Assembly (NCBI GenBank): GCA_002238825.1
Contig: MPNC01000003.1
Coordinates: 62,001-126,000, forward strand
DNA from: SAR202 cluster bacterium bin87
GTDB taxonomy: Bacteria > Chloroflexota > Dehalococcoidia > Lucifugimonadales > UBA3495
Length of the DNA stretch: 64,000 nucleotides
Direction: 5' to 3'
The translations under genes and the position numbers were made by a program. The notes under the pieces are model-generated. The model ran no database searches. It had not been told where the DNA came from and saw only the letters and a program-made list of their open reading frames with translations. Position 1 is the first letter of the stretch. Each line of letters begins with the position of its first letter. Positions 1,393 to 17,123 of this stretch are shown here, piece by piece.

Positions 1393-2131
1393 TGTGCCTC
1401 CAGTTGATTGTGTGAATCCGTAAGCAGGGCGCTTAGCAGGCCGCCGCCGCCGGAAACCAAAAGAACGGCGGGGCGGTCGCAAAAACATCGCGACGAGGTG
1501 GCGCGTTCCCGATCTCAGGTCAATTTGGGATGCTCGCAATCGAAGCCTGGTCCAACGCGTGAGTGGTGGATTGGCTACCCATGTGCGACGAGAACGACTG
1601 ACCGCGTTCGAAGTCGACGACCGCCGGGCGACGCCCATATCCAGGCTGATTGTTGGGGTTCAAATTTGCCGCCCATGCACCGGCGTTTGAGATGTTCTTC
1701 CCGAGGTGACAGAGGCAGGCGTACCCATCTAAAGATGCATATTTCGCGTGATCCAGCGAACCGACAGCCGCTATTGGAAGCTCGCGGGGTCGGGTGTGGG
1801 TGTAGCAAGCGGTCTACGCCCAATTCAGTTCCACGTTGGAGGTCCAGCGGGAACTGATTGTATTCGCCCCGCGCTCGTTCAGAGCCTGTAGTCCAAAAGC
1901 TGAGCAGGCAATCTTGGGAACGTTGCGGGCTCTTTCAAGCCATCAAGTCGGGGTGCTTTCCCAGAATATCCGATGGGTCGTTACCCATCAGGCCAGCGAT
2001 GTCTCCAAGCACCCGTTTAGTCGTCACACGGGTCCTGACCGCACGAAATAGCTTACGTCGCCGTCGCGCAAAACGCGGTCAGCCCAGTCTAATTTATGGT
2101 GATGAGTACAGCACTCAGGAGGGTTATCACC
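1393..2131. other. 739-bp intergenic region between divergent genes
   Basis: This separates the minus-strand NERD/helicase pair from the plus-strand helicase block. No convincing gene is present. A short minus-strand frame (stop 1935-1937, GTG at 2027, ending SDILGKHPDLMA) reads like a natural C-terminus but is only 30 codons; it may be a remnant. A palindromic 13-mer (CATCTAAAGATGC, 1726-1738) recurs in inverse orientation at 7173-7185 on the far side of the block. Both divergent promoters should lie here but I see no clear -35/-10 pair. Confidence 0.4.
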
Positions 2132-4078
2132 GTGGCCTCGTCAGGAATCAACGTGCCAAAATACTCCATCGACCCCATCCAGCGTAAAGCGGCCGAATCC
2201 GGCTCTCGCGTGACGATCATCACCGGCGGACCCCAGACGGGCAAGTCCCATTCCGCCGTTTCCCGCGTGGCTTTTCTCCTGGAATCCGGTTGCCCACCCG
2301 AGCAAATCACGTGCATTGGTGCTACCCCGGAGCGGGTTGCCAATCTGAGCCTCCTCATGCGTAGCCACCCTCGTGTCCTGGCCAACTCCGACCGGCTCTT
2401 TGTGGGAACCGTTTTGGAGTTGGCCAATTCACTTGTCCGATTGTCCGAGGGATGGAAGGAACTGTCAGTGCCATCCAATTACAGCGTGTGGAACGATACC
2501 CAAACAGTTGAGGTCATCGCGCACGCGTTGGCCGGATTGGGAGGCATTGAAGTTAAAAGGACCGAGATACGCGAGGCAATAGCGTGGAGCCGGCGGAATC
2601 GATGGAGCGGCAAGGTTGATGAGGAGATACCAGCGGCGGATGCTCGGCTGGAGGAACTCGCAGATTTGTGCCAAAGGGAAAAATTATGGCTACGGGTTTT
2701 GGACACAGATGACGTTCTTTACACGGCCGCAGAAGCCGTGGAGAAATTTGGGAAAGGAGAGTTGGATGAATACAGTCATTGGCTCCGGTGCAACCATCTG
2801 TTGGTCGACGGCGTAGAGGACTTCAACCAGCGCGAAATCAAGCTGCTGGCGCTGTTGGCGGGTGGGAGCGACACCCTGACACTCACCACCGATGAGAACC
2901 AAAGGATCCGCGGCAGCTATTCGGGTTCAAAGGTCTACGGTGTACGTCCCCAGGATCGCGGCGCAGATGTTCACCACCTGGAGCTTACTCAAACGGGCAC
3001 CACTCCGCTGTCGGTAGCGGCGGCACTTCTACGCCGTTCCGATGAAATGGAGGGGTTGAGGGATTACGAACAGGTATGGGAGCGGGTGGCGGGTCCGAAC
3101 CCGAGGTTGGTCGAGGTGCCGGGAACCAACCGCGACATGGCCGTGCGTGTGGTGGCCGACGCCGTAGCGCGACACGACCAAGGGGTTGCGTGGAAGGACA
3201 TTGTCATCCTCTGCAAAACATCGACGGCGATGAAACCACTGCTGACGCTGTTGGTACACCGTGACACACCATACCGGATTGTGGGTAGGAAACCCGCTGA
3301 CCGGATCAGCGATGCGGACTGCGTCCGCGCCATGCTCACCTGCCTGATCAATCCCTACGATCTATATGCAGTCAGGGTCTCGGTCGGTGCCCGCCATCCC
3401 AATCGCGGTCTAAGTTTGAACGGGAAGACATCCGGAATGCTATGGAGGATGGCGAGGGCATTAGATCTGGACCTGGTCACTGCCGCGGAAACGTTCCTGC
3501 GGCAATGCGAAGAACCGCAACGGGCGGACCTGTCCTGGCTGGTAGAGAGCCATCGCCATCTGCGGTCAATACTGGAGGGTCCCGGATGTGATTTGACCAC
3601 TCTGCTGGCACATGCGCTGGTTCAGGTTCGTGGGCTGGCGGGTCCATGTTCGATAGCGGGGGACGAAACTGTGGTCGACTTCCGAACTGATCGGTTGTGG
3701 CAGGACGCAGCTCACAACGCTGCCCAAACCGATGGTGAGCCCCTGGAAAAACAACTGGTCCGCTTCCTTGACCGGACTTCGGCGGTCTTAGACGCAGACC
3801 GCGGAGCATCTGACCCGGATGCGTTGACCGTCAGCACATGGGACGCGATCAAGGGTCGACATTGGCCCGTGGTTTTGGTCTTCGACGTCAGCGATGAAAC
3901 CATCCCGGGCGGAGCGGGGGTCCGCGGCCGCCGCTATCAAGAGAGGCTCTGGTACACGATCACAACTCGAGCGACCCGAGAGTTGGTCTACTATTGTTTG
4001 ACAGACATCGGTCTGGGAAACAATAGTAGACCCACCAGGTATCTGGAGCCGCTTCGACCACTGCTGGAGGCGGAGTGA
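2132..4078 (+). CDS. UvrD/Rep-like SF1 helicase with degenerate Walker B
   Basis: A 648-aa protein. I place the start at GTG 2132 because AGGAGG (2117-2122) lies 9 bases upstream; ATGs at 2096 and 2102 lie before that site. SF1A motifs in order: Walker A GGPQTGKS (about 32-39), motif Ia around CIGATPER (61-68), motif II VDGVED (225-230), motif III TTDENQRI (252-259), a UvrD 2A-like ILCKTSTAMKPLL segment, motif V-like STWDAIKGRHWPVVLVFD, and motif VI-like WYTITTRATREL near 607-618. In the family motif II is normally DE-x-QD; here the catalytic Glu is Gly227 and the Gln is Glu, so ATP hydrolysis may be lost or altered. It heads a plus-strand block with two unknown genes. A perfect 15-bp inverted repeat lies inside its 3' end. 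Family is fairly sure; activity is doubtful. Confidence 0.8.
   Translation: MASSGINVPKYSIDPIQRKAAESGSRVTIITGGPQTGKSHSAVSRVAFLLESGCPPEQITCIGATPERVANLSLLMRSHPRVLANSDRLFVGTVLELANSLVRLSEGWKELSVPSNYSVWNDTQTVEVIAHALAGLGGIEVKRTEIREAIAWSRRNRWSGKVDEEIPAADARLEELADLCQREKLWLRVLDTDDVLYTAAEAVEKFGKGELDEYSHWLRCNHLLVDGVEDFNQREIKLLALLAGGSDTLTLTTDENQRIRGSYSGSKVYGVRPQDRGADVHHLELTQTGTTPLSVAAALLRRSDEMEGLRDYEQVWERVAGPNPRLVEVPGTNRDMAVRVVADAVARHDQGVAWKDIVILCKTSTAMKPLLTLLVHRDTPYRIVGRKPADRISDADCVRAMLTCLINPYDLYAVRVSVGARHPNRGLSLNGKTSGMLWRMARALDLDLVTAAETFLRQCEEPQRADLSWLVESHRHLRSILEGPGCDLTTLLAHALVQVRGLAGPCSIAGDETVVDFRTDRLWQDAAHNAAQTDGEPLEKQLVRFLDRTSAVLDADRGASDPDALTVSTWDAIKGRHWPVVLVFDVSDETIPGGAGVRGRRYQERLWYTITTRATRELVYYCLTDIGLGNNSRPTRYLEPLRPLLEAE
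3985..4032. repeat. Perfect 15-bp inverted repeat inside a coding region
   Basis: GGTCTACTATTGTTT (3985-3999) is exactly reverse-complemented at 4018-4032, with an 18-base loop. It lies in the last 100 bases of the helicase gene and can form a long hairpin in RNA or cruciform in DNA. It is AT-richer than a normal terminator stem and has no T-run. Confidence 0.85.
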
Positions 4079-4419: not shown

Positions 4420-6207
4420 ATGCGCAGCAAAATGGCAAGATTATGGGACTCGCTTACACCAACACAGCAGGTGGTGGTCGGTGTCCTACTGCGACTACCC
4501 CTGGCGAGCGACGCCGAGCTGGCTGCGTTCATAAGGCTACCTACCAACACAGTCTCCCGTGCGCTGAGAAATCTGCGCGCACGGGGGATCGTTGCTTCGG
4601 CCCTGCTGGGTTGTCTGCAATCGCCAGTGGAACGGTGGTGGTGGACCTCTCCTACCCGATCAGAATTGTTCCCGCGCGGGACCGATTGGCATCAACCAGG
4701 CTGCCGCGCCCGCCTGTTGGAAAGGCTCTCCTCCGTTGAGCATCTCTACACAGCAGCCACTCAGATTCTTGACCTCGGCCCCTTCCGGGAATGGCAATGG
4801 GTCGATGGGTTCAGTATGGACGCCGCCATACGTTGTGAGGACGGGTGGGCGGCGCTGTTTTGGGTGGGGCTGTTGCGGTCCGAATCCCGCCTGGCGGCCC
4901 TGATTGAAGATGTTGGCGGGGACTTGGAGTCTCTGGCCCAGGGCGACCCGCACCCACGCCCCAGTCTGCTGTGCTTCGTCGTATTGCGCGAGTGGCAGGT
5001 CGAGATGGTGCGTCGCGTCGCCCGGCGATGCGGGATCGAGGACTGGGTGCGCGTATGGTGCGCCAAGGACAACACTTGGCACGAAACGACGAATCGCCTG
5101 AACAGCCGGGGCTGGATACGCCAGCCCGCGTATCGGCGGACGATGAGTGAGACGTTATGGGAAACCCGGCTCACCAATTCGCTGTGGGCACGGGCGTACC
5201 TGCGAGATCCGGTGCGACTGTTGAGCCGGGTCAACAAAGCCATCATGGCCACCGCTCACGGCGATGACGCCTCTGCCCGGCTGGCCGCGGTACACGAGGA
5301 TCTCTTGGAGCTGTACGGCGACGAAGCAACCAGAAAGGCGATGACGCCAAGCGAGGTGATCCTGAATAACGATGGGTTGAGAGCGGCCGCGACGATCATA
5401 ACGAGTGTCGCCCGGGACATTGAACAGGAACGCCCGGGCGATGAGGCGGCTGCAATCCTGCGACGAACGGCCTCGTTCCTCGAAACCCCGGCACGGTGCA
5501 AACACTTGGGGCACGTGTTGCTGCTGAGCGTCGAGTTCTCCGGGTTCACCGTGGCGATGGGCCAGGTGGCTTTGGGTGAAAGTCGTAACGACCGGCGCGT
5601 GCAACACACTGCCGCTCTCCTGCGTGATTTCGGGCAAATAGTCAGTTGGATGGACGGCAAAAGGAACCGCTATCGGGTCAGTAGTGAAGCTTCCGACGCC
5701 CTGGCAACGATGGACCGCACCGAACCGGTGAATGTTTGGACTCGCCTTGAGATCGACCGCTGGAACGATCTGAAAAAGGTTGCGAAGCATGAACACGGTG
5801 TCCTGGACCTAGTCGCCGAGTTCATGGCTAGCGGCTGTCCAATAGCCCCCGGTTGGCCCATAGGGGAGAATTTCGGCGATGAAGGCGGGATCAAGCCGGA
5901 CGCTGCAGTTTACCTTCCCTCGGGCCCGTTCGGGGCGGGATGGTATTACATCGAGTATGAACTCAGTGCCCGAAGCTTCAAACGGATACAGCGAAAACTT
6001 CGTGGGTACCACTCCAAACGAAGGTCTGACCATTGGCCTCTGTTGGTGGTCTGCGCCACCGAACGGGCGGAAAAACACTTTCAGCAGGCTGCTTTCGAAA
6101 CCGGCGTAGATATAGCGACCACGACCGTCGCTCGTTTGAGAAAGCTTGGCGCGGTTGGCAACACAGAATGCTGGATGCTGGGCGGTCAGCCGGCGTCGCT
6201 CGTCTGA
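4420..6207 (+). CDS. Two-winged-helix protein with C-terminal nuclease-like domain (Replic_Relax-like)
   Basis: A 595-aa protein with a good GGAG site before ATG 4420. Residues about 12-62 form a winged helix-turn-helix (ELAAFIRLPTNTVSRALRNLRARGIV). A second winged-helix-like segment lies near 365-435 (VAMGQVALGES ... IVSWMDGKRNRYRVS). The C-terminus (about 480-565) has IKPDAAVYL, then YYIEYELSARSFKRIQRKL and WPLLVVCAT. This D...E-x-E layout followed by a basic helix resembles replication-relaxation/MobC-type proteins and PD-(D/E)XK-like folds. Those families bind DNA in plasmids and integrative elements. Neighbours are an SF1 helicase upstream and a 222-aa protein 29 bp downstream, pointing to a DNA-handling block. 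I am confident of the winged helix, less so of the nuclease-like domain and family assignment. Confidence 0.6.
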   Translation: MRSKMARLWDSLTPTQQVVVGVLLRLPLASDAELAAFIRLPTNTVSRALRNLRARGIVASALLGCLQSPVERWWWTSPTRSELFPRGTDWHQPGCRARLLERLSSVEHLYTAATQILDLGPFREWQWVDGFSMDAAIRCEDGWAALFWVGLLRSESRLAALIEDVGGDLESLAQGDPHPRPSLLCFVVLREWQVEMVRRVARRCGIEDWVRVWCAKDNTWHETTNRLNSRGWIRQPAYRRTMSETLWETRLTNSLWARAYLRDPVRLLSRVNKAIMATAHGDDASARLAAVHEDLLELYGDEATRKAMTPSEVILNNDGLRAAATIITSVARDIEQERPGDEAAAILRRTASFLETPARCKHLGHVLLLSVEFSGFTVAMGQVALGESRNDRRVQHTAALLRDFGQIVSWMDGKRNRYRVSSEASDALATMDRTEPVNVWTRLEIDRWNDLKKVAKHEHGVLDLVAEFMASGCPIAPGWPIGENFGDEGGIKPDAAVYLPSGPFGAGWYYIEYELSARSFKRIQRKLRGYHSKRRSDHWPLLVVCATERAEKHFQQAAFETGVDIATTTVARLRKLGAVGNTECWMLGGQPASLV

Positions 6208-6236: not shown

Positions 6237-6905
6237 ATGGAAATGAACGCACCGAAAAGTGGCTCTGAACCACAGCGAATGCTCAAGCAACTGTTGGAAT
6301 TCCGATCCCCAAGTCGCGTGTGCGAATTGTGCGGCATTGATGAAGACACGCTGGATGGTTTGTTAGACGATGCCATTCCATGGCCACCCGGCGTGTTCGA
6401 TGAAGTTCGTAAAGCTTTGGCGCGATATGTTGACCACGACATGCCCTCCATAACCGATCAGGCCGCCGAGCCCTGGGACGCAACCCTCGGCGATGGTTCT
6501 CTGGAAAGCGATGCGGCCAATCGCGAAGATGCCGCAGTATCGGAAGGTGTTCCGACGACGCCGAGCGCCGCGGTTCGAAGACCTGCCCCAAGTGTCGACG
6601 ACCGACAATCGGGCCCTCAAAAGTTGACCGCTCTCATATACCAACTGTGTGGCGAAGCCACTGAGATCTTGGATCGCGATGACGCGTCCAGACACCAGGA
6701 TCTGTGGACGTTGCGCACAAAACTCGACCGACTCAGCCGGATGACACTCGAGGCCAGTACCGTGAGTGAATCAGAGGATCAAGGTTTGGTTTGGGCCAGA
6801 TTGGCCGCTGACCGGGTAATCCGGAAGATTGATGCCAAGTTGCCCGGTTGGGAAAGGCAGTCCGGGGGCTGGTGGCAACGAATTAAGAACTGGATGCGGA
6901 ATTAA
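6237..6905 (+). CDS. Hypothetical protein, third gene of the helicase block
   Basis: A 222-aa protein. ATG 6237 is chosen for the GGGAG just upstream; another in-frame ATG lies at 6243. The first 60 residues (RMLKQLLEFRSPSRVCELCGIDEDTLDGLLD) look like a small helix-turn-helix or antitoxin-like DNA-binding domain. Residues about 70-135 are acidic and disordered. The C-terminal 90 residues are helical (LTALIYQLCGEATEILD ... LWTLRTKLDRLSRM ... LAADRVIRKIDAKL) and end in a Trp-rich tail (GGWWQRIKNWM). It follows the two-winged-helix gene by 29 bp and is likely co-transcribed. I do not recognise a family; a regulator or accessory subunit of the block is an inference. Confidence 0.6.
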   Translation: MEMNAPKSGSEPQRMLKQLLEFRSPSRVCELCGIDEDTLDGLLDDAIPWPPGVFDEVRKALARYVDHDMPSITDQAAEPWDATLGDGSLESDAANREDAAVSEGVPTTPSAAVRRPAPSVDDRQSGPQKLTALIYQLCGEATEILDRDDASRHQDLWTLRTKLDRLSRMTLEASTVSESEDQGLVWARLAADRVIRKIDAKLPGWERQSGGWWQRIKNWMRN

Positions 6906-7515
6906 TCCGGCGAATATTGACACGTAGGGCCGACGCAGTCAGCGCGGCATACTCCGCCACAGGCTTCCCGCCGTACCGGGTCCGCCTTCACCAACCGTTT
7001 CTTGGGACGCTACAGCACAAACCCCAGCTAAGGAAACTGACGCGCAGGCGCTTAATTTCAACGACAAAGTGCGGTTGGCGCGGATCGGGTTACAAATTGG
7101 CTATGCGCAGCGTGAGTGGGTGAGTAAGTCAACCCAGCATCAAGTGAGATTTCGATAGTCCCTGCGCAGCAAGCATCTTTAGATGATCCTCTGGAGACAT
7201 GGGGGCGCGGCATGAAGTCGGCAGTGGGAGTTTCTAGGGCGCACCGGCCGGAAAGTTGCGTACATGTGAAACACCGCGGACATGGAGCCAGTGATCGTCA
7301 ACAACTATGTACCACGCCAGCCGCGTGGCGATATTGATCAATATCAGTTGGTTGTTTCGGGATCAACCACGGCCACTTCGATCCGTGGCTAATGACGCAG
7401 TGTGCGATGGCGCATTACGGGCCTCGATGGTCCGGCTGTTCTCTGATGCCCGCTGTGCTTTGGACATATGCGGCAACTACGTGCGCAGCATGAACGTAGG
7501 GGGCATCGCCACGAT
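6906..7515. other. 610-bp intergenic region
   Basis: No secure gene. It holds a perfect 16-bp palindrome (GATATTGATCAATATC, 7330-7345), which could be an operator, and the 13-mer GCATCTTTAGATG (7173-7185), the inverse of the one at 1726-1738. A short plus-strand frame (7282-7392, MEPVIVNNYVPRQ..., 36 aa) overlaps the palindrome but has no ribosome-binding site, so I do not call it. Confidence 0.4.
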
Positions 7516-8867
7516 TCACAAATCGTCCATGGGCGGTGTGTCCGCCGGGATGATGAGCAGCCCGAAAGGTTCTCGGTTAGCCGTTCGTTCGATGAAGGAA
7601 CGGACACCCAGGGTGTCGCGGAACTGGTCGATGCGACGTTGGTACTTGACCTCTACTGGGATGTGGTGGTCGCCGACGTTCAAAACGATGTCGGCTTCTT
7701 GGTTATGGTCCTGCTCTGTTTGATAGGCGACGTCGAGGCGTGGTATTGCCAAGGCCGTAGAGCCGAGAGCGCTCTCCGCCATGTGTCCCGCCATGATCGC
7801 GAGCTCCGGACTGGCTGCCAGCACGTTGGGGTGCAGTGGGATGAGTTCCGGGAGCCAGCTTGTCCGGATGCTGTGGTCGGCGAGGCAAAGTTTTGGATTG
7901 CCTCGGGTGCGCTGGGGGCGTACTTCCAGCGGCATGATCAGTCTGACCAGCATGGTGTCGTCCTGAGCCTGCAGATGTCCCGTAACGCGCTGGGTGCTGA
8001 TGTTTCGTCCCGACGTGAGACGGTCTTCTCACGCGATGCGTTCGTACGACACCGATTGCCCTGCGTGGCGGCGGGCGAGTCTGAAAAGCCTTTTCATCAG
8101 AGCGGCGTCGCGTGTGTCTGCACCGAGCGCTGCGGCGATATCGCGTTGCAATACGGATTGGATGACGGTCTTGTTGAGTTGGTCGGCCAGTAGAGGCCAG
8201 TCGGAGTCGGCCTGGTTATGAGCGATGGGATAGGCCCCGCATTCGGAGAAGTACGTGAATGCCTCAGCTCGGGCTCCGGCGTTGTCGACGCCGGGTCGGA
8301 CGAGATACTGGCGGAACTCTTTGCGCAACAGGTTGGTCAGGCCGTTGTTTGGAAGGAACGGTGTGTAGCAGTTGAGACCTCGGAACTGGGAGATCTCGCT
8401 CAGCGAAAGGGCGGCAGCCTTGCCGGTGAGCAGGACCTTGGTGGATGTGCTGTCTACCGGGGATTCAAACCGGCCCCTCCAGCCGCGAATGTTCTGCACT
8501 TCGTCGACGAACAGGTGGGTGCTCTGTCCCTGGTGTGCCCGGTTGTTGAACGGCTCCGTGACAATGTTGGCTTTGAGTCCCCTGCGGGATGCGCAGTATC
8601 GGGTTGATGCTCCCTCCAATGTCGAGACCTCGTCCAACTGGACCCGCATGATGTTGTTGGGCGGTACGCCCTGGGCCAATAGGTCTTCGATGATCTGGAA
8701 CTGGATGGTCTTTTGCCGACTTGCAGTGGCCCGCGTACGGCGATGATGGGAGCTATCCTCGAGTCCAGGCGTCGCCGAACACGGTCGACCAGGTGGTGCC
8801 GCGTGGGTGGCGCGGCTGGGGGCTGGATGCCGGACCACCAAGGGTTGGACCGTCGTAGGTCGCCCAT
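7516..8867 (-). pseudogene. Frameshifted AAA+ ATPase of the DUF4143 family
   Basis: Three reading-frame segments join into one DUF4143-type ATPase. The N-terminus (from ATG 8867: MGDLRRSNPWWSG ... IIAVRGPLQVGK) carries Walker A. The frame then breaks at the T-run 8711-8714; one missing base would restore GKTT and the next segment TIQFQIIEDLL. That segment holds Walker B (HLFVDEVQNI) and the arginine/sensor region (KVLLTGKAAALSLSEIS), then stops after SYERIA near 8024-8028. A second shift leads into EDRLTSGRNISTQRV and the C-terminal PD-(D/E)XK-like DUF4143 domain (QEADIVLNV ... IPVEVKYQRRI), ending at 7516. Intact members are about 400-450 aa. Two lesions, one in the ATP-binding loop, indicate a dead gene unless they are sequencing errors. 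Confidence 0.78.
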
Positions 8868-8992
8868 CAGTGCGGCCGGGAGTTCGCTGTGTGGTCGAGT
8901 GGTCGATGCGGGCTCTTCACCTCCGGGCAGACGCTGGATGTGCGCTTTGCGGCGGCGCGTCTCCGATCGTCTCGGTTATAGGAAGCGTGCTT

Positions 8993-10273
8993 TCATATCC
9001 CGACGTATCGGAAACCCAGGCTCTGCATGTGAACGGGATCCAACGCGTTGCGGCCATCGAACACCAATCGAGGCGGCGACATCTGTTTGGAGATTTCACA
9101 CCAGTCGGCCTCGACGCACTCCTCCCACTCAGTGGACAAGATTACGGCCTGGGCTTGCACGGTCGCTCCCTCCGCGGTTGGGGCGAACCGAACTCCGCGC
9201 GGGAGTACTTTCCGAGCGTTATCAGTAGCTTGCGGATCGTAGGCAGTGACGATGGCGCCGTCGGCCACGAGCGCATTGATCAGATCTTCGGCGGGCGCTT
9301 CACGGACGTCGTCGGTGCCGGGCTTGAAGGCGAGGCCAAGCACAGCTACACCAACACCGGTTAAATTGCCAAACTCCTCGCGCACCGCGCACAGCGGGAG
9401 CAATCGCTGTCTGTTGTTGACGCTGATGACAGCGCGCAGCAACTCCAGGTTCACCCCAATGTCCAGCCCGATGCGGTCCAACGCCTGTACATCCTTCGGA
9501 AAACAGGATCCGCCATAACCCAGGCCGGCGTACATTTTCCCGCCGGTTCGCGGGTCCAACGTCAGTCCATCGCTCACGTTGTGAATCGAGGCGCCGACCC
9601 GGTCGCAGAGCAAGGCGATCTCATTGATAAAGGAGACGCGTGTGGCCAGGAAGGCGTTGCTGGCGTACTTGATCATCTCGGCGCTGGTGATGTCAGTGAT
9701 CATGTTGGGCGCGTCGATGCCCTGATGCATCGCCTTCACCATGGTGACCGCCCCATCATCACTGGCGTTGGCGCCAATGATAATCCGATCAGGGTGCTGC
9801 CAGTCGGATACAGCTTTACCTTCGCGGAGAAACTCTGGATTGGCGGCATAAGGCAGCCCGGTTGCGGCAAGGCACCGATCGGCAATTCGTTGGCCGGTTC
9901 CCGGCGGCACCGTGCTTTTCATCACGACAACGTTGCAGGACCGGCCCCTGGACTTGACCCACGACAACGCCGATTCAACCTGGCTCAAATCTGCACTGCC
10001 GTCCGGGGCCTGGGGCGTGCCGACCGTGATGAGAGCCACACCACCGACCGGGCTTTCAAACGCGTTGGCATGTTGGAACCGGATGCCGCCGGCGCCGATC
10101 CCGGCCTGGACGAGTTGTTCCAAGTCAGGCTCGTAAAACGGGACGACACCCGACTTCAGCTGATCCACTCGTCCCTGATCAACGTCGATACCGATTACGT
10201 TGTGGCCGGCGCGGGCGAGGTTTGCAGCCGCGACCGTGCCCACGAGACCGAGACCGATCACGGTGATTTCCAT
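8993..10273 (-). CDS. UDP-glucose/GDP-mannose 6-dehydrogenase family
   Basis: A 426-aa protein starting MEITVIGLGLVG. The family N-terminus begins directly with the Rossmann motif, so I prefer ATG 10273 to ATG 10303, which would add ten unsupported residues. The NAD site is GLGLVG near residue 7. The catalytic thiohemiacetal Cys lies in YGGSCFPKD, and STVPPGTG and NPEFLREG are family signatures. It oxidises a UDP-hexose to the uronic acid with two NAD+, giving precursors for polysaccharides or glycosylated products. It is divergent from the glycosyltransferase at 10529 and lies just downstream of the broken ATPase. The cluster context suggests it supplies UDP-glucuronate to the adjacent glycosyl transfer step. 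Substrate is inferred from family. Confidence 0.9.
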   Translation of the reverse strand: MEITVIGLGLVGTVAAANLARAGHNVIGIDVDQGRVDQLKSGVVPFYEPDLEQLVQAGIGAGGIRFQHANAFESPVGGVALITVGTPQAPDGSADLSQVESALSWVKSRGRSCNVVVMKSTVPPGTGQRIADRCLAATGLPYAANPEFLREGKAVSDWQHPDRIIIGANASDDGAVTMVKAMHQGIDAPNMITDITSAEMIKYASNAFLATRVSFINEIALLCDRVGASIHNVSDGLTLDPRTGGKMYAGLGYGGSCFPKDVQALDRIGLDIGVNLELLRAVISVNNRQRLLPLCAVREEFGNLTGVGVAVLGLAFKPGTDDVREAPAEDLINALVADGAIVTAYDPQATDNARKVLPRGVRFAPTAEGATVQAQAVILSTEWEECVEADWCEISKQMSPPRLVFDGRNALDPVHMQSLGFRYVGI

Positions 10274-10357
10274 GTTGTTGATAGTCTCCGTTCCGTCCAC
10301 CATCGTCGTCGCCGATCCGCCGAAATCGACAGTAGGGATCTGCTGATCGTCACCATT

Positions 10358-10528: not shown

Positions 10529-11839
10529 ATGAAAATCCTACAGGTCATCCACGGGTATCCCATGCGGTACAACGCCGGCTCTGAGGTTTACACCCAGGGT
10601 TTGTGCCAGGCGCTGGCGGATGACCACGAGATCCATGTGTTCACCCGCCAGGAAAATGCCTTTCTGCCAGAGTACGCAATGCAAAAAGAGCGGGATCCGG
10701 CCGACCCGCGGGTGGCCCTGCACGTCATCAACATGGCCCGTGCCCGCGATGGCTACAACCATCAGGAGGTGGATCACGCTTTCGCGGAACTTCTGGACGA
10801 ACTCGCGCCCGACGTTGTGCATGTGGGACACCTGAACCACCTGTCAACCTCGCTGGTGTTTCCGGCGAAGGAGCGGGGCATCCCGGTGGTGTTTACGCTC
10901 CACGACTACTGGCTGATGTGTCCTCGTGGCCAGTTCATCCAGATGTACGAGGACCCGGGCCAGCAGCCGTGGCCCGTTTGCGACGGCCAGGACGACCGCA
11001 AGTGCGCGGTGCGCTGCTACCGCAGGTACTTCGGCAACGATGATGATCAGTTCGAACGGGACGCAGCCTACTGGACGGGCTGGGTTGGTCGTCGCATGGG
11101 CCACATCCGTCAGGTGTGTGACGCCGTAGACCTGTTCCTGGCGCCGGCCAGGTACCTGCTGGGACGGTTCCGGGACGATTTCGGCATTGCCGATGACAAG
11201 CTCGTTTACCTGGATTACGGGTTTCACCGTCAGCGCATGACCGGCAGGGCCAGAACCCCGGATGACCCTTTCACCTTCGGTTACATCGGCACCCACATCC
11301 CGGCCAAGGGTGTGAACCATCTCATCCAGGCATTTGGCGAACTCGAAAGCCAGGCCCGCTTGAGAATCTGGGGGCGTGACCGCGGCGCTGAGACGGCAGG
11401 TCTGAAGCGCATGGCTGCGGAGTTGACTGGCGACGCCGGCGACCGGATCGAGTGGATGAACGAGTACCGCAATCAGGACATCGTTCCCGACGTGTTCGAC
11501 CGCTGCGACGCCATCGTGGTGCCGTCCATCTGGGCGGAGAACTCGCCCCTGGTCATTCACGAGGCGCTCCAGGCCGGCGTGCCGGTGATCACCGCCGATT
11601 ACGGCGGAATGGCCGAGTACGTGGGCCACGAACGGAACGGTCTGCTGTTCACTCACCGGGATCCAACCTCCCTGGCGCAGCAGATGCAGCGGTTGGTCGA
11701 CGCACCCCAATGGGCCCGGGAAATGGGCCGCCGAGGCTACCTGCAGTCGGACGACGGCAACGTGCCCGACATGTCTGAGCACGCCCAGGAGATCGCGAGG
11801 ATGTACGCCGATCTCCTGGCTCAGGGGAAAAAGCAATGA
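10529..11839 (+). CDS. GT4-family glycosyltransferase
   Basis: A 436-aa GT-B fold retaining glycosyltransferase. The N-terminal acceptor domain starts MKILQVIHGYPMRYNAGSE (the glycine-rich first loop) and carries VVFTLHDYWLMCPRGQ. The C-terminal donor domain starts near FTFGYIGTHIPAKGVNHLIQAF and has the EX7E-like nucleotide-sugar site in PSIWAENSPLVIHEALQAGVPVI. The insertion with CDGQDDRKCAVRCYRR, a small Cys cluster, is seen in some GT4 proteins. It transfers a sugar from an activated donor, probably in the cytoplasm or at the inner membrane face. Its last codons overlap the radical SAM gene by 4 bases (ATGA), so the two are translationally coupled. Acceptor unknown; with the dehydrogenase next door a uronic-acid donor is possible. 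Confidence 0.88.
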   Translation: MKILQVIHGYPMRYNAGSEVYTQGLCQALADDHEIHVFTRQENAFLPEYAMQKERDPADPRVALHVINMARARDGYNHQEVDHAFAELLDELAPDVVHVGHLNHLSTSLVFPAKERGIPVVFTLHDYWLMCPRGQFIQMYEDPGQQPWPVCDGQDDRKCAVRCYRRYFGNDDDQFERDAAYWTGWVGRRMGHIRQVCDAVDLFLAPARYLLGRFRDDFGIADDKLVYLDYGFHRQRMTGRARTPDDPFTFGYIGTHIPAKGVNHLIQAFGELESQARLRIWGRDRGAETAGLKRMAAELTGDAGDRIEWMNEYRNQDIVPDVFDRCDAIVVPSIWAENSPLVIHEALQAGVPVITADYGGMAEYVGHERNGLLFTHRDPTSLAQQMQRLVDAPQWAREMGRRGYLQSDDGNVPDMSEHAQEIARMYADLLAQGKKQ

Positions 11840-12918
11840 CATCTACTTCAACGCCGGTCCTGCCAGCGAACCACCCGGCCGGCCAGGGTTTTCAGGGCCC
11901 CTGGCGCATCACCTTCGACACCAACCCGGACGACTGCAACCTGCGCTGCATCATGTGCGAGGACCACTCGCCCTACAGCAACACGCAGCGGTACCGCCGG
12001 GCCGCCGGGCTGCCAAAACGGCGTATGGCCATCGATATGGTCAGACGCGTCCTGGCCGATGCAGCGGGCAACGGCCTTCGGGAAATCATCCCGTCCACCA
12101 TGGGCGAACCGCTGCTGTATCGCCACTTTGACGAGATTATTGACCTGTGCGGGGAATACGGCGTGAAGCTCAACCTGACCACCAACGGGTCCTTTCCCAT
12201 CAGGGGAGCCAGGGCCTGGGCGGAGCGCATCGTTCCGGTGGGTTCGGACGTCAAGGTGTCGTGGAACGGCGCCACCAGGGAAACCCAGGAAAGTGTGATG
12301 CTGGGATCCAACTGGAAGAGGGTGGTCGAAAACGTCCGGACGTTCATCGAAGTGAGGGACGAGCACGCACGCACCGGCGGCAACAGGTGCCGGGTAACTT
12401 TCCAGTTGACCTTCATGGAGATCAACCACGTCGAGATCCCGGCGGTGGTCGAATTGGCCGCCAATCTCGGCGTGGACCGCGTGAAGGGCCACCACCTGTG
12501 GGTGCATTCGCCCGAGATGCGGGGCCAGTCCATGCGGCGCGACCCCGAGGCCGTCACCACGTGGAACGACACTGTCGCCGCAGCCTACCGGGCCGCGGCT
12601 CGGTGCCGTCTGTCCGACGGCGCCCAGGTTCTGCTGGAGAACATCTTTCCCCTGGATCCGGATGGCGGCGACGACATCGCACCCGGCGGTGAGTGCCCGT
12701 TCCTCGGTCGGGAGGCATGGGTGGCTTCAGATGGGCGGTTCAATCCGTGCTGCGCCCCCGACGCGCTGCGCAAAACCCTTGGCGACTTCGGCAACCTCAA
12801 CGATCACAGCATCATCGAGATCTGGCAGAGCGCCGAATACAAGGACCTACGGAATAACTACATGAGCAAGCCCCTCTGCCAGGGCTGCAACATGCGGCGA
12901 CCCACCAGCGTGGTGTGA
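11836..12918 (+). CDS. Radical SAM/SPASM protein
   Basis: A 360-aa protein. The radical SAM [4Fe-4S] motif CNLRCIMC sits near residue 35-42, followed by the GGE-like STMGEPLLY. A SPASM-type C-terminus supplies further Cys: ECPFLGREAW, FNPCCAP and LCQGCNMRR. SPASM enzymes bind auxiliary Fe-S clusters and modify peptides, proteins or sugars by radical chemistry. It overlaps the glycosyltransferase by 4 bases and is 48 bp from the PhyH-WG-methyltransferase gene, so all three look like one transcript. There is no obvious short precursor-peptide gene beside it, so a RiPP role is not supported; a sugar or small-molecule substrate fits the neighbours better. Function is inference. Confidence 0.88.
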   Translation: MTSTSTPVLPANHPAGQGFQGPWRITFDTNPDDCNLRCIMCEDHSPYSNTQRYRRAAGLPKRRMAIDMVRRVLADAAGNGLREIIPSTMGEPLLYRHFDEIIDLCGEYGVKLNLTTNGSFPIRGARAWAERIVPVGSDVKVSWNGATRETQESVMLGSNWKRVVENVRTFIEVRDEHARTGGNRCRVTFQLTFMEINHVEIPAVVELAANLGVDRVKGHHLWVHSPEMRGQSMRRDPEAVTTWNDTVAAAYRAAARCRLSDGAQVLLENIFPLDPDGGDDIAPGGECPFLGREAWVASDGRFNPCCAPDALRKTLGDFGNLNDHSIIEIWQSAEYKDLRNNYMSKPLCQGCNMRRPTSVV

Positions 12919-12966
12919 TCGCCAGCCACGATCTTCTATACCCGGCCCTGACACCCGAGGAACCCA

Positions 12967-15501
12967 ATGGTCACGCCACCGTGGATGCCACAATTGCAAC
13001 GAGATGGTATTGTGCATCTGCCCGGAGTAATCGAGGCCGACGTTGCGGTCCGGCTCGCCATGCTGGCCTTGGGGTCATTGGATGACCACGAGTCCTCCGA
13101 CGATCTTGTGAGAACCGCGGACGGGGTGCCGGTCAAGCTGCTCTATCCGCTGGATAAGTACGATGAGTTCGTTTCTGTGCTGGGCAGCCAGCCAGTGCGC
13201 GAGGTGGTGGATGGGTTGTTGCCGGTTGGGGACTCGGTACTGACCTGGGAGGACGTCCTGATCAAGCCTCCATCCGTAGGGGTTGAGGTCGGAGTTCATC
13301 AGGACATAGGCTTGGATCCCACCCGAGATACGGTCCACAGCTTGGGAATTTCTCTGACCGCTGACGGGGATAACCCTGTGTATTTCCTCCCCGGAAGTCA
13401 CCGTATGGGGCCATTGACCAAGAGCGCGGTGGACGCGCTTTGGGCGGATTGCCGCGATCTGTTCCAACCGGTTGCGACCCAACCTGGAGACGTGGTCATA
13501 CACAATGTCCACGTTCTTCATCACTCCGAGACCAACCGTTCACCGAAACCGAGAGCGACGTGGTACCTGGAGTTCCGGAGCATGCGATCTCTCCTTGAGC
13601 ATGGCCCGTGGGATAGTGACTGGGTGCATCTCCGACGCGCAATCTGGGTTTATGCTCGGGCTATTGCCGGCGACCGCATCGGAGCTGATGAGATCGAGCC
13701 GGTGAGCACGGCGTTGAAGCAACTGAATTATGGGACCGGAACTCTCAGGGTTCCGCACGTCACGGAAACGGTTCGGTACGACATCACCAGCCCGTACAAT
13801 CATTTTTCTGCCCGAGAGGACGACTGGCGGCTGTGTACCGTGTCCGCCGATGGCACCCATCACGCCCGCGAGGGGCGGCCCGCGTATGATCATCGCTTCA
13901 CTGAGGTATTGAAGTTCCACGCGCCCGGCCTCGCGCCCGTGGTCGACGATACCGGCTCCTACCACATCCATCCCAACGGCAGCGCCGCGTACGTTGAGCG
14001 ACACAATCGCACGTTTGGGTTCTACGAGGGCATCGCCGCCGTGGACTCAGCGCAAGGCTGGCACCACATCCGACCGGACGGCACGCCGCTCTACTCCCAA
14101 CGCTACCAATGGTGCGGCAACTTTCAGGAGGGACGCTGTACTGTCAGGGACGCTGACGGACGCTACTTCCACATCGGCACCGATGGCGCTCCCGTTTATC
14201 CGGAAAGTTACCGGTATGCAGGTGATTTTCGGGATGGGCACGCCGTGGTGCAGAACGATGCCGGCGACCACACCCACATCGACCCGGAGGGCGTGTTCCT
14301 GCACGCCAGGTGGTTCCGCGACCTGGACGTGTTCCACAAGGGGTTCGCCCGGGCCGCGGATTTGTCGGGCTGGCACCATGTGGATATGGCGGGACAACCG
14401 CTCTACGCTCGTCGTTTCAGGACGGTGGAACCCTTCTATAACGGACAGGCGCGGGTCGAAGGACACGACGGCTCTCTGATGCTCATCGATGAACAGGGTC
14501 ATGAGATCGTCCGGCTCAGGAATTCGTCGGTGTCCACTCTGGAACGGTTATCCTCCGACATGGTTGGGGTGTGGAAGACCCAAACGATACGCGCCGCTGC
14601 GGAACTGGGCGTGTTCGAACTCTTGCCGGCCGATCCGGACGAAATCGAGCAAACTTTAGAACTGGCGCCGTCGAACGGGGCCAGACTGATGCGCGCGCTT
14701 CTGGAACTGGGATTGGCCCGAGTTGACGGCCAAGGAGTGTTCCACGCCACCCAGATTGGCGCTCACCTCAGGCTCGATCACGACCTTTCGCTGGCCACCG
14801 CCGCCAGCCACTGGGGAGACCCATCCGCCGACGCATGGAACGGGCTGGTGGAATCCTTGCGCACTGGTGATCCGAACCCGTCGGAGGCCGGCCAGGATTT
14901 CTTTGCCCGGTTGGCGGAGCTACCCGGCGAGTTGGCCGCAAGCCACAGCATGTTCGCCACCTACGCCCGGCACGATTACGCCTCCCTACCAACCGCGTGG
15001 AATTTCGGCGTCCATGATGCCATCCTGGATGCCGGCGGCGGCACCGGGGAACTGGCTTTCGCACTGCTCCGCGCCAACTCGGGCATGAACGCCACCGTGA
15101 TGGACCGCCCCGAGATTGAGGCTCTGTTCCGCCCTGCGGGAGACGTCGGCGAGCGGTGCCGGTTCGTCGCCGGCGACCTGTTCCGGAAATGGCCGGTGCG
15201 GTCGGATGCGGTGATCCTGGCACGGGTGCTCCACGACTGGCCGGACGACCACGCGCGTCGCATACTGGAGCGGGCCAGAGAAGCCATGCCGGTGGGCGGC
15301 AGTCTCTACTTGGTCGAGATGATCCCCGACGAGATGACGGGGTCGGGTGGCTTGCTCGACTTAAACATGCTGGTCATGACCGGCGGCAGGGAACGCACCG
15401 TGGAAGAATTCAAGGTACTGCTGACCGAGGCGGGCTTCGGCCTGCACAGGGTTGTCCCGACCAAGACTGTCAACTCCCTCATCGTCGCCGAAGCGCTTTG
15501 A
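12967..15501 (+). CDS. Triple-domain protein: PhyH dioxygenase, WG repeats, O-methyltransferase
   Basis: An 844-aa protein with GAGG before ATG 12967. Residues about 10-205 are a phytanoyl-CoA dioxygenase-type Fe(II)/2-oxoglutarate enzyme: H111-x-D113 (VHQDIG) and H186 (LHHSETN) form the metal triad, and an Arg near 196 can hold 2-oxoglutarate. Residues about 285-515 contain at least five WG-like beta-repeats of 35-45 aa (SYHIHPNG, WHHIRPDGTPLY, YFHIGTDGAPVY, HTHIDPEG, WHHVDMAGQPLY). Residues about 525-844 are an acetylserotonin-type class I methyltransferase: winged-helix dimerisation region, SAM loop DAGGGTG (688-694), VMDRP, and catalytic-base-like RVLHDWPD (H756). One chain could thus hydroxylate and O-methylate the same substrate. 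It follows GT4 and radical SAM genes and is nearly joined to a histidine phosphatase gene. No frameshift is seen. Confidence 0.88.
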   Translation: MVTPPWMPQLQRDGIVHLPGVIEADVAVRLAMLALGSLDDHESSDDLVRTADGVPVKLLYPLDKYDEFVSVLGSQPVREVVDGLLPVGDSVLTWEDVLIKPPSVGVEVGVHQDIGLDPTRDTVHSLGISLTADGDNPVYFLPGSHRMGPLTKSAVDALWADCRDLFQPVATQPGDVVIHNVHVLHHSETNRSPKPRATWYLEFRSMRSLLEHGPWDSDWVHLRRAIWVYARAIAGDRIGADEIEPVSTALKQLNYGTGTLRVPHVTETVRYDITSPYNHFSAREDDWRLCTVSADGTHHAREGRPAYDHRFTEVLKFHAPGLAPVVDDTGSYHIHPNGSAAYVERHNRTFGFYEGIAAVDSAQGWHHIRPDGTPLYSQRYQWCGNFQEGRCTVRDADGRYFHIGTDGAPVYPESYRYAGDFRDGHAVVQNDAGDHTHIDPEGVFLHARWFRDLDVFHKGFARAADLSGWHHVDMAGQPLYARRFRTVEPFYNGQARVEGHDGSLMLIDEQGHEIVRLRNSSVSTLERLSSDMVGVWKTQTIRAAAELGVFELLPADPDEIEQTLELAPSNGARLMRALLELGLARVDGQGVFHATQIGAHLRLDHDLSLATAASHWGDPSADAWNGLVESLRTGDPNPSEAGQDFFARLAELPGELAASHSMFATYARHDYASLPTAWNFGVHDAILDAGGGTGELAFALLRANSGMNATVMDRPEIEALFRPAGDVGERCRFVAGDLFRKWPVRSDAVILARVLHDWPDDHARRILERAREAMPVGGSLYLVEMIPDEMTGSGGLLDLNMLVMTGGRERTVEEFKVLLTEAGFGLHRVVPTKTVNSLIVAEAL

Positions 15502-15503
15502 CG

Positions 15504-16166
15504 GTGCCGGGGGACGAAGCCCGTACTCTGGCACTGCTGGACAGGCTGCCTGAAGGATTAGCGGCTGCCCTGGTGGTACGGCACGCCGAGCGAGAGGAAA
15601 TCCCGCCTGGAACCTTTGGCAATGATGTCCCACTGACGGACCGAGGACGGCACGCCGCCTATCGCCTTGGCGAGGGGTTGTCACACCGGCCTGCCGGTAT
15701 CGTAAAGACAAGCCCGCTCCCACGCTGCGTCCAGACTGCCGAATCCATCGTAGCAGGCTCGGGCTGGACAGCCGACGTGATTCCTGACATGTTGTTGGGC
15801 GATCCGGGGCCATTCGTCGTCGACAGCGAGCTGGCGGGCAGCCTAATCCTGGACATTGGCATCGCTGGGGTGGTGACGCAACAGTTGTCGGCAACCGAAC
15901 CGCCCGATGGCATGAGGTCCACATCGGAGGGCGTGCAGTTGGTTTTGGACAGCGTGGCCGAAGCCCTTTGCGCCCGGTGTGGCACCAGCGTTTTCGTCAC
16001 CCACGACGCCGTTCTCGCCGTGTTGGTGGGAACGCTATACGGGCGGTCTGTTGACAAGTTCCGCTGGCCTGACTATCTGGACGCCCTGGTGTTGTGGGCA
16101 GACTCAGACCGGATTCAGTTCCTCTGGCACGGGCTTGACGAGGGTTCGTACCCAATCGGCAGTTAG
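15504..16166 (+). CDS. Histidine phosphatase (phosphoglycerate-mutase-like)
   Basis: A 220-aa protein. The start is GTG 15504, three bases after the stop of the fusion gene, or TTG 15498 overlapping it; neither has a clear ribosome-binding site, so it is probably read by coupling. The phosphohistidine motif is ALVVRHAERE (RHAE in place of RHGE) followed by PLTDRGRHAA and KTSPLPRCVQTA, and the second catalytic His lies in VFVTHDAVLAVLVG. The family removes phosphate from small molecules such as sugar phosphates. Its position suggests it dephosphorylates an intermediate of the cluster's product. The last 63 bases overlap the convergent epimerase gene. Confidence 0.8.
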   Translation: MPGDEARTLALLDRLPEGLAAALVVRHAEREEIPPGTFGNDVPLTDRGRHAAYRLGEGLSHRPAGIVKTSPLPRCVQTAESIVAGSGWTADVIPDMLLGDPGPFVVDSELAGSLILDIGIAGVVTQQLSATEPPDGMRSTSEGVQLVLDSVAEALCARCGTSVFVTHDAVLAVLVGTLYGRSVDKFRWPDYLDALVLWADSDRIQFLWHGLDEGSYPIGS

Positions 16167-17123
16167 GCGCACCGCTTCTCTGGAAGACACCCTGGGCTCG
16201 TGCCCCAGCACCCGCCTGGCCTTTTCGTTGCTGAACGCCTCCCGCTGGCCCTCCTCACCAGGCCGGTAGCCGACATATTCGATGGGTACATCGGCGCCGG
16301 AGGCCTCAAGGCACCACTGAGCCAGCTCCTTCACCGTGCGCTCGTCGCCGTTGCCCACGAAGAACTTCTCACCGACCACGGCATCCGCGGGGGCATGGAT
16401 TGCTCGCATCCATCCTTCGACCACATCGTCGATGAACGACAGGTCTCGGGTCTGTTGTCCGCCCTCCACGACAATGGGCAATCCATTCATCGCGTTCCAC
16501 AGCCACTTGAAGATGAACACCTCCCTTCGCATCTGCGGCCCGATCACCACGCCGGTGCTCAACACCACTGCCGGCACACCGTAGGCCCGGTACCACGACC
16601 ACATCGCCAGCTCCGCGGCTGCCTTGGAGAATCCGTATGGGTTGTGGGGCGTCAGCGGATGGCTTTCGTCAATCGGAAGTTGCAGGGGCCGACCGATCTC
16701 GTTGCCGGAACCGGCAAATAACACCTTCTCAACGCCGTCGGCATGGCGGACGGCCTCCAGCAGTGCAACGGTACCCTCAATGTTCTGCATCACCGTGTAA
16801 CGTGGAGAGTCGAACGCCAGAGGTGTGTCGGCCTGCGCCGCCAAGTGCGCGATCACCGCGTGTCCCTCGATGTCGCTGGGCAAGATGTCCTGCACGCTCT
16901 TCCAAATGTAGCGGAAGTCAGGGTGACGCATTTCGCGCTGCAGCAGGCCGGCATGGAGCGGCGGTACCACGTCCAGACCGGTCACTTGGTAGCCGCACCC
17001 CAACAGTCGCCTAACCAGATGGGAGCCGCCGAACCCGGCGGCACCGGTGACCAAGGCCGTATGGGAGTGCCCATCAGTCGCTTCGGTCAGTTGATCGTCG
17101 CTTTCGGGTTTCAAACCTACCAA
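16104..17123 (-). CDS. NAD-dependent epimerase/dehydratase (extended SDR)
   Basis: A 339-aa nucleotide-sugar SDR. The Rossmann glycine motif is TGAAGFGGSHLV, the catalytic YxxxK is in NPYGFSKAAAELA, and GSGNEIGRP and RDLSFIDDVVEGW are family landmarks. It probably epimerises or dehydrates a nucleotide sugar. The start is uncertain: TTG 17123 is used because no ATG precedes the Rossmann motif in frame, and TTG 17114 is equally possible. It runs toward the plus-strand phosphatase and overlaps its 3' end by 63 bases, unusual for unrelated genes. Cluster context (UDP-glucose dehydrogenase, GT4) supports sugar metabolism. Confidence 0.85.
   Translation of the reverse strand: MVGLKPESDDQLTEATDGHSHTALVTGAAGFGGSHLVRRLLGCGYQVTGLDVVPPLHAGLLQREMRHPDFRYIWKSVQDILPSDIEGHAVIAHLAAQADTPLAFDSPRYTVMQNIEGTVALLEAVRHADGVEKVLFAGSGNEIGRPLQLPIDESHPLTPHNPYGFSKAAAELAMWSWYRAYGVPAVVLSTGVVIGPQMRREVFIFKWLWNAMNGLPIVVEGGQQTRDLSFIDDVVEGWMRAIHAPADAVVGEKFFVGNGDERTVKELAQWCLEASGADVPIEYVGYRPGEEGQREAFSNEKARRVLGHEPRVSSREAVRLTADWVRTLVKPVPEELNPV

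Follow-up and report, generated by a model that had tools for sequence, protein, structure and literature searches.

A PhyH, WG-repeat and O-methyltransferase fusion protein in a SAR202 gene cluster related to the core of the Undecim cluster of phage WO

Results

Gene content of the locus

The window analysed here, 64,000 nucleotides of contig MPNC01000003.1 from SAR202 cluster bacterium bin87 (Chloroflexota), encodes a protein that joins a PhyH domain, a WG-repeat domain and an O-methyltransferase (OMT) in one chain, set within a cluster of glycosyltransferase (GT4), radical SAM/SPASM (rSAM), phosphatase and nucleotide-sugar genes (Table 1). Several of these genes overlap: the rSAM gene overlaps the GT4 stop, the start of the histidine phosphatase overlaps the stop codon of the fusion gene, and the epimerase/dehydratase gene is convergent with the phosphatase gene, their 3' ends overlapping. 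The wider neighbours are ordinary chromosomal genes, e.g., ribosomal protein S1, PolX, and aconitase. A UvrD-type helicase is also encoded near the cluster (window 2096-4078), and its homologue lies near the cluster of genome G022 (L048 1479-3464).

Table 1 Features of the fusion gene and its cluster in the window
Feature	Position	Strand	Basis
UDP-glucose 6-dehydrogenase-type nucleotide-sugar dehydrogenase	8993..10303	-	NCBIfam TIGR03026, 375 bits vs cut-off 190
GT4 glycosyltransferase	10529..11839	+	Pfam PF00534, 4.9e-28
Radical SAM/SPASM protein, CNLRCIMC motif	11836..12918	+	Pfam PF04055, PF13186
PhyH::WG repeats::O-methyltransferase fusion, 844 aa	12967..15501	+	ORF, Pfam, G060 counterpart 59% identical
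PhyH domain, Fe(II)/2-oxoglutarate dioxygenase type	12967..13815	+	Pfam PF05721, ligand alignment, GC3
WG-repeat domain, six full ~35-aa repeats and partial seventh	13837..14526	+	Periodicity, invariant columns, AlphaFold model
O-methyltransferase, dimerisation and Methyltransf_2	14527..15498	+	Pfam; PDB 6c5b E 5.4e-44
Histidine phosphatase	15498..16166	+	Pfam PF00300, 1.8e-14; conserved neighbour; WG-fused in L105
NAD-dependent nucleotide-sugar epimerase/dehydratase	16104..17123	-	Pfam PF01370, 4.4e-41; conserved neighbour

The best profile matches of the rSAM protein are peptide and protein maturases (W_rSAM_matur, PqqE), although it falls below every curated maturase-family cut-off. Its identity as a BlsE-like cytosylglucuronate decarboxylase was rejected, the match being weak (22.5 bits vs a cut-off of 400). 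An anti-phage defence role was likewise discarded, since the PADLOC matches were weak and generic (viperin to the rSAM, 7.9e-7; mads_2 to the OMT, 1.7e-4).

Domain organization of the fusion protein

The original prediction described an uninterrupted 844-aa frame without frameshift, and this is confirmed: the ORF starts with ATG and is open throughout, and its GC3 profile is coding-like over the full length, which rules out a frameshift or an overlapping-gene error. The three domains are genuinely part of one chain, with catalytic motifs intact in both enzyme domains and with PhyH, Dimerisation, and Methyltransf_2 all above curated Pfam cut-offs. A full-chain AlphaFold model, based on a 4-row alignment, reached a mean pLDDT of 58 with poor PhyH and OMT parts, and does not allow domain packing to be judged.

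The PhyH domain matches PF05721 across residues 11-197 (E 3.7e-14, 54.0 bits vs a cut-off of 22). Alignment with five other PhyH proteins places the metal triad at H111, D113, and H185 and the 2-oxoglutarate arginine at R196, so that two of the iron ligands initially proposed stand while the third, given as H186, was one residue off; H185 sits within an H-x-S motif, and position 186 is Y in the homologue from genome G060. The domain is thus a putative Fe(II)/2-oxoglutarate oxygenase, with R196 fitting the 2-oxoglutarate arginine. Its nearest solved chain by sequence search of the PDB is EvdO1 (4xbz, E 1.4e-9, residues 53-226), with a further match to 4xab (E 1.1e-4), and its closest stand-alone relative is encoded in the metagenome-assembled genome (MAG) locus L007 (12683-13516, 37% identity). 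The PhyH stretch also differs in composition: its GC3 is 0.664, below the range of 0.724-0.845 covered by all 283-codon segments of the GT4, rSAM, WG, and OMT frames. This PhyH contrast is absent from G060, in which the OMT is lower.

The WG repeats span residues ~291-520. At 24.4 bits, the window protein falls just below the cut-off of 25.6 for WG_beta_rep (PF14903), but the call of at least five WG-like repeats is sound, and six full repeats plus a partial seventh can be recognised. Homologues clear the cut-off (33.0 bits in L007, 28.7 in Wolbachia, and 48.7 in L105), tblastn with the WG segment alone matches proteins annotated as "WG repeat-containing", and the lag-35 BLOSUM autocorrelation of residues 291-515 is +0.126, a value that 1000 shuffles approach to at most -0.34. 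One histidine is invariant in five of the repeats (H333, H367, H402, H437, and H471). Modelled alone with AlphaFold, the segment forms regular strand pairs (mean pLDDT 89), and a fold search with this model retrieved beta-propeller proteins at TM 0.4-0.5 (Z 7-10 and rmsd 5-9 A in a second comparison). Because these fold-comparison scores are modest, we describe the modelled domain only as probably propeller-like.

The OMT occupies residues 532-843, comprising a Dimerisation domain (residues 532-598, E 3.2e-8, 33.7 bits vs a cut-off of 25.6) and a Methyltransf_2 domain (PF00891, residues 677-824, E 6.5e-30, 104.5 bits vs 22.3). SAM motif I (D688AGGGTG694) and H756, both named in the original prediction of an acetylserotonin-type SAM O-methyltransferase, are present.

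Distribution of the cluster and its relatives

The same three-domain order was sought in other genomes and was found in G060, a member of a different genus within the same family, which encodes PhyH::WG::OMT in one ORF with 59% identity over residues 4-843. Because G060 holds an independent copy, the fusion is not an assembly artefact. In G060, the fused cluster is preceded upstream by a gene for a Prok-E2/ThiF/JAB protein of the ubiquitin-like conjugation type (L072 221-2437). A first IMG/VR scan with the whole 844-aa protein as query returned no matches.

Relatives of the cluster were identified in ~20 genomes of the window's order, in other bacterial MAGs, on an Arsenophonus plasmid, and in Wolbachia phage WO. 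The gene order GT4-rSAM-WG is preserved in ~30 loci across several lineages, and its carriers beyond the window's order include G324 and G365 from the same phylum, a Desulfobacteraceae MAG and its relatives, the MAG at L007, and the Arsenophonus plasmid. Identity between window and phage WO proteins reaches 48% for GT4 (GT half), 57% for rSAM (rSAM half), 41% for the dehydrogenase, 32% for the WG-OMT, and 26% for the epimerase. By gene content, the phage WO region corresponds to the Undecim cluster, a set of eleven genes (WD0611-WD0621) of unknown function that is highly expressed and laterally transferred (PMC9203015), has moved repeatedly between symbionts, and underwent duplication in an obligate Wolbachia strain (PMC9203015, PMC12801941). 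Taken singly, the domains and the cluster core belong to known kinds. In a literature search covering few subscription journals, we did not find the three-domain fusion, a link between free-living clusters and Undecim, or WG as a constant core described; nor did we find a paper combining WG repeats with a methyltransferase or with cluster terms, or anything on an Arsenophonus plasmid with PhyH or on aminoglycoside biosynthesis in Rickettsia or Wolbachia.

The genome of the window also carries unfused versions of the cluster on short contigs (C62, C55, and C52, i.e., L036, L037, and L038), which comprise GT4, rSAM, WG-OMT, phosphatase, and epimerase at 90-93% identity and look like strain variants in the MAG or recent copies. 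On C52 (L038 2304-4294 and 4579-6284), ~2 kb with a TMEM260/PMT-like ORF separates the phosphatase gene into two parts, and the reading frame of the WG-OMT is disrupted at about residue 766. Elsewhere, the WG-OMT of G1001 occupies two frames, WG plus dimerisation followed by the catalytic part, possibly through a frameshift (L104 3825-5254), and a single in-frame TAG interrupts the copy at L069 (G539:C24:5694-7379).

WG as the constant element

Conservation is unevenly distributed along the protein. Between the window and Wolbachia, identity is 47% for WG vs 22% for the OMT, and 56 of 237 WG columns are invariant across 15 proteins vs 23 of 324 OMT columns, which makes WG, judged on sequence, the best-conserved part. 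SAM motif I is degenerate (GVGRSAK) in the L007 and Arsenophonus OMTs, and in Wolbachia both this motif and the catalytic histidine are gone. In the phage WO UC4 protein (L082 14028-15623), the Methyltransf_2 profile is not reached and only the WG part is well preserved.

WG is the constant companion of GT4 and rSAM, while the enzyme attached to it varies: usually an OMT, PhyH plus OMT in the window and G060, a histidine phosphatase without OMT in L105 (G958; 6775-9776), where a carbamoyltransferase and an epimerase adjoin, and none in L084, an IMG/VR contig with phage-type replication genes that carries a GT4::rSAM fusion followed by WG alone. The initial view of WG as a spacer is thus not supported: a segment that is both most conserved and a constant partner of GT4 and rSAM genes, and that also occurs enzyme-free or bearing a phosphatase, probably does more than separate two enzymes. 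In L084, the GT4::rSAM and WG genes have on either side a gene for a small protein of unknown family (4653-5312 and 8739-9422), and these two proteins are related to each other. Some loci carry a carbamoyltransferase, or a MATE or ABC transporter.

Origin of the fusion

Among carriers of the family, PhyH precedes WG only in the window and G060, and all others begin at the WG domain. PhyH genes adjoin WG genes in three further loci, namely L007, the Arsenophonus plasmid, and phage WO; L007 holds two, of which the one at 12683-13516 is related to the window PhyH and the other groups with the Arsenophonus and WO proteins. On Arsenophonus plasmids, SHMT-like and threonine-aldolase-like genes come after the PhyH gene (L051 13042-15382), a set that suggests amino-acid transfer chemistry. 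Because PhyH is paired with SHMT there, nucleoside chemistry of the LipL/LipK type was considered for the window, and was set aside as the window has no SHMT.

The window and G060 PhyH domains are 63% identical. The WG-OMT part of the window protein, however, groups with unfused copies from the same genus, and the topology that makes the window and G060 WG-OMT parts sisters is rejected (AU p 2.4e-55). A single shared origin of both fusions followed by plain descent is therefore rejected; the PhyH part must have been gained more than once, transferred as a domain, or lost several times. The simplest reading is that it was gained or transferred, with repeated loss a possible alternative.

Discussion

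A candidate tailoring enzyme with a proposed substrate-holding hub

We propose, with a probability of about 50%, that the fusion protein acts as a tailoring enzyme within a conserved cluster, built around GT4, rSAM, and WG, that makes a UDP-glucuronate-derived glycoside, with WG serving as a substrate-holding hub. The dehydrogenase would convert UDP-glucose to UDP-glucuronate, and the epimerase/dehydratase would then reshape the sugar. GT4 would transfer this sugar to an acceptor, the rSAM would introduce a modification by radical chemistry, and a phosphate would be lost through the histidine phosphatase. WG, whose fold is probably propeller-like, may hold the glycosylated intermediate and present it to the attached enzyme, a binding role suggested by its conservation. 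That enzyme would usually be an OMT, to which the window protein adds a PhyH-type oxygenase in front, so that one chain could apply two independent decorations, oxidation and O-methylation, to one bound substrate. A glycoside of this kind, decorated stepwise, is favoured by the sequence matches of the PhyH domain to the orthosomycin oxygenases EvdO1/EvdO2, which act in the biosynthesis of oligosaccharide antibiotics, and by the likeness of the cluster to the avilamycin pathway, where UDP-xylose is employed together with a radical SAM epimerase, O-methyltransferases, and PhyH-type oxygenases (PMC8234114).

The main rival, which we consider rather unlikely, is that a cell-surface polysaccharide or glycolipid is decorated instead of a released small molecule, the fusion modifying surface sugars. 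UDP-glucuronate enzymes and GT4 are frequent in capsule and LPS loci, and exopolysaccharide or LPS roles have been proposed for Undecim (PMC9203015). However, the cluster has a single glycosyltransferase, the transporters seen are of MATE, ABC, MFS, and EamA types, and the scanned neighbours include no gene recognisable as a polymerase, flippase, or ligase.

An improbable alternative is the relay originally envisaged, in which PhyH would place a hydroxyl on a carbon for the OMT to methylate, with WG as a spacer. Both catalytic motif sets are intact within one chain, and the fusion occurs in two genera. Most WG-OMTs nevertheless lack PhyH: the order's remaining WG-OMTs (56-71% identical) show neither type of PhyH within the retrieved flanks, and the OMT therefore does not need a PhyH product. 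Conversely, in the Arsenophonus/L007/Wolbachia lineage, where PhyH is adjacent, the SAM motif is degenerate, and the conservation of WG is unlike that of a spacer.

It is more doubtful still that WG itself is the substrate, a scaffold modified by the SPASM rSAM and glycosylated by GT4, with OMT, PhyH, and phosphatase as finishing enzymes. The smallest module (L084) consists of GT4::rSAM and WG alone, five repeats share an invariant histidine, and the rSAM most resembles maturases, but it lies below their curated cut-offs, and precursor-like or modified residues are not known. Least credible is a passenger PhyH domain joined by chance and adding nothing. Its presence in only 2 of ~30 relatives and its GC3, unlike that of the rest of the window operon, speak for this reading; against it stand the retention of metal and 2-oxoglutarate residues in two lineages with non-sister WG-OMT parts and the 63% PhyH identity between them.

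More broadly, and tentatively, the hub reading may extend to the whole family: GT4, rSAM, and WG could form an unrecognised biosynthetic module of free-living bacteria, symbiont plasmids, and phages, with WG as the central carrier of the substrate (or as the very substrate being modified), with OMT, PhyH, and histidine phosphatase as exchangeable partners, and with the window protein as its most elaborate form.

Comparison with known systems

The window and Undecim share a homologous core, namely the epimerase (UC2), GT4 and radical SAM (UC3), the WG-OMT-like UC4, and the UDP-glucose dehydrogenase (UC10), and the window holds homologues of these members only of the UC1-UC11 set. GT4 and rSAM are fused as UC3 in Undecim but separate genes in the window, which also differs by its histidine phosphatase. 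Similarly, the PhyH gene UC5 follows UC4, whereas the window PhyH is fused to the WG-OMT, and the two PhyH proteins have no BLAST match. UC1, UC6-UC9, and UC11 are absent as neighbours, a search for UC5, UC6, and UC7 homologues in the window found none, and the surroundings are chromosomal, the cluster lying in no WO prophage or WO-like island of the kind carried by Wolbachia and other symbionts. UC4 has been described under "methylation", a label that is questionable for Wolbachia, whose protein has lost the SAM motif retained in the window OMT but has kept WG. This comparison shifts attention to the WG domain and puts the methylation role of UC4 in question for Wolbachia. Wolbachia is hard to manipulate, and free-living bacteria that carry a homologous core are a more tractable setting in which to look for the product.

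With acetylserotonin-type small-molecule OMTs (DnrK, MmcR, CalO6, and DtpM), the window OMT shares the Dimerisation plus Methyltransf_2 architecture over ~300 aligned residues, but differs by its N-terminal WG and PhyH domains. HygX, grouped with EvdO1/EvdO2 in a previous study (PMC8234114), was not matched by name in the structure search. EvdO1/EvdO2 are the best solved matches of the window PhyH, yet distant ones, and the window PhyH differs in being fused to a WG-OMT. Also matched is chain 6ec3, which the structure search names only "Methyltransferase domain-containing protein" and which we take to be EvdMO1. As in the window protein, it unites a methyltransferase and a PhyH-superfamily oxygenase, although the oxygenase similarity is weak (E 0.0033), no WG match was reported, and the order is opposite, with the oxygenase match at residues 318-461 of 471 in 6ec3 and the oxygenase N-terminal in the window. 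EvdMO1 is a methyltransferase-oxygenase fusion of everninomicin biosynthesis (PMC10338323). The statement that no characterised protein has the order seen here therefore needs qualification: the order is rare, occurring in 2 of the ~30 relatives examined, but a methyltransferase joined to a PhyH-superfamily oxygenase, in reverse arrangement, has been characterised in EvdMO1.
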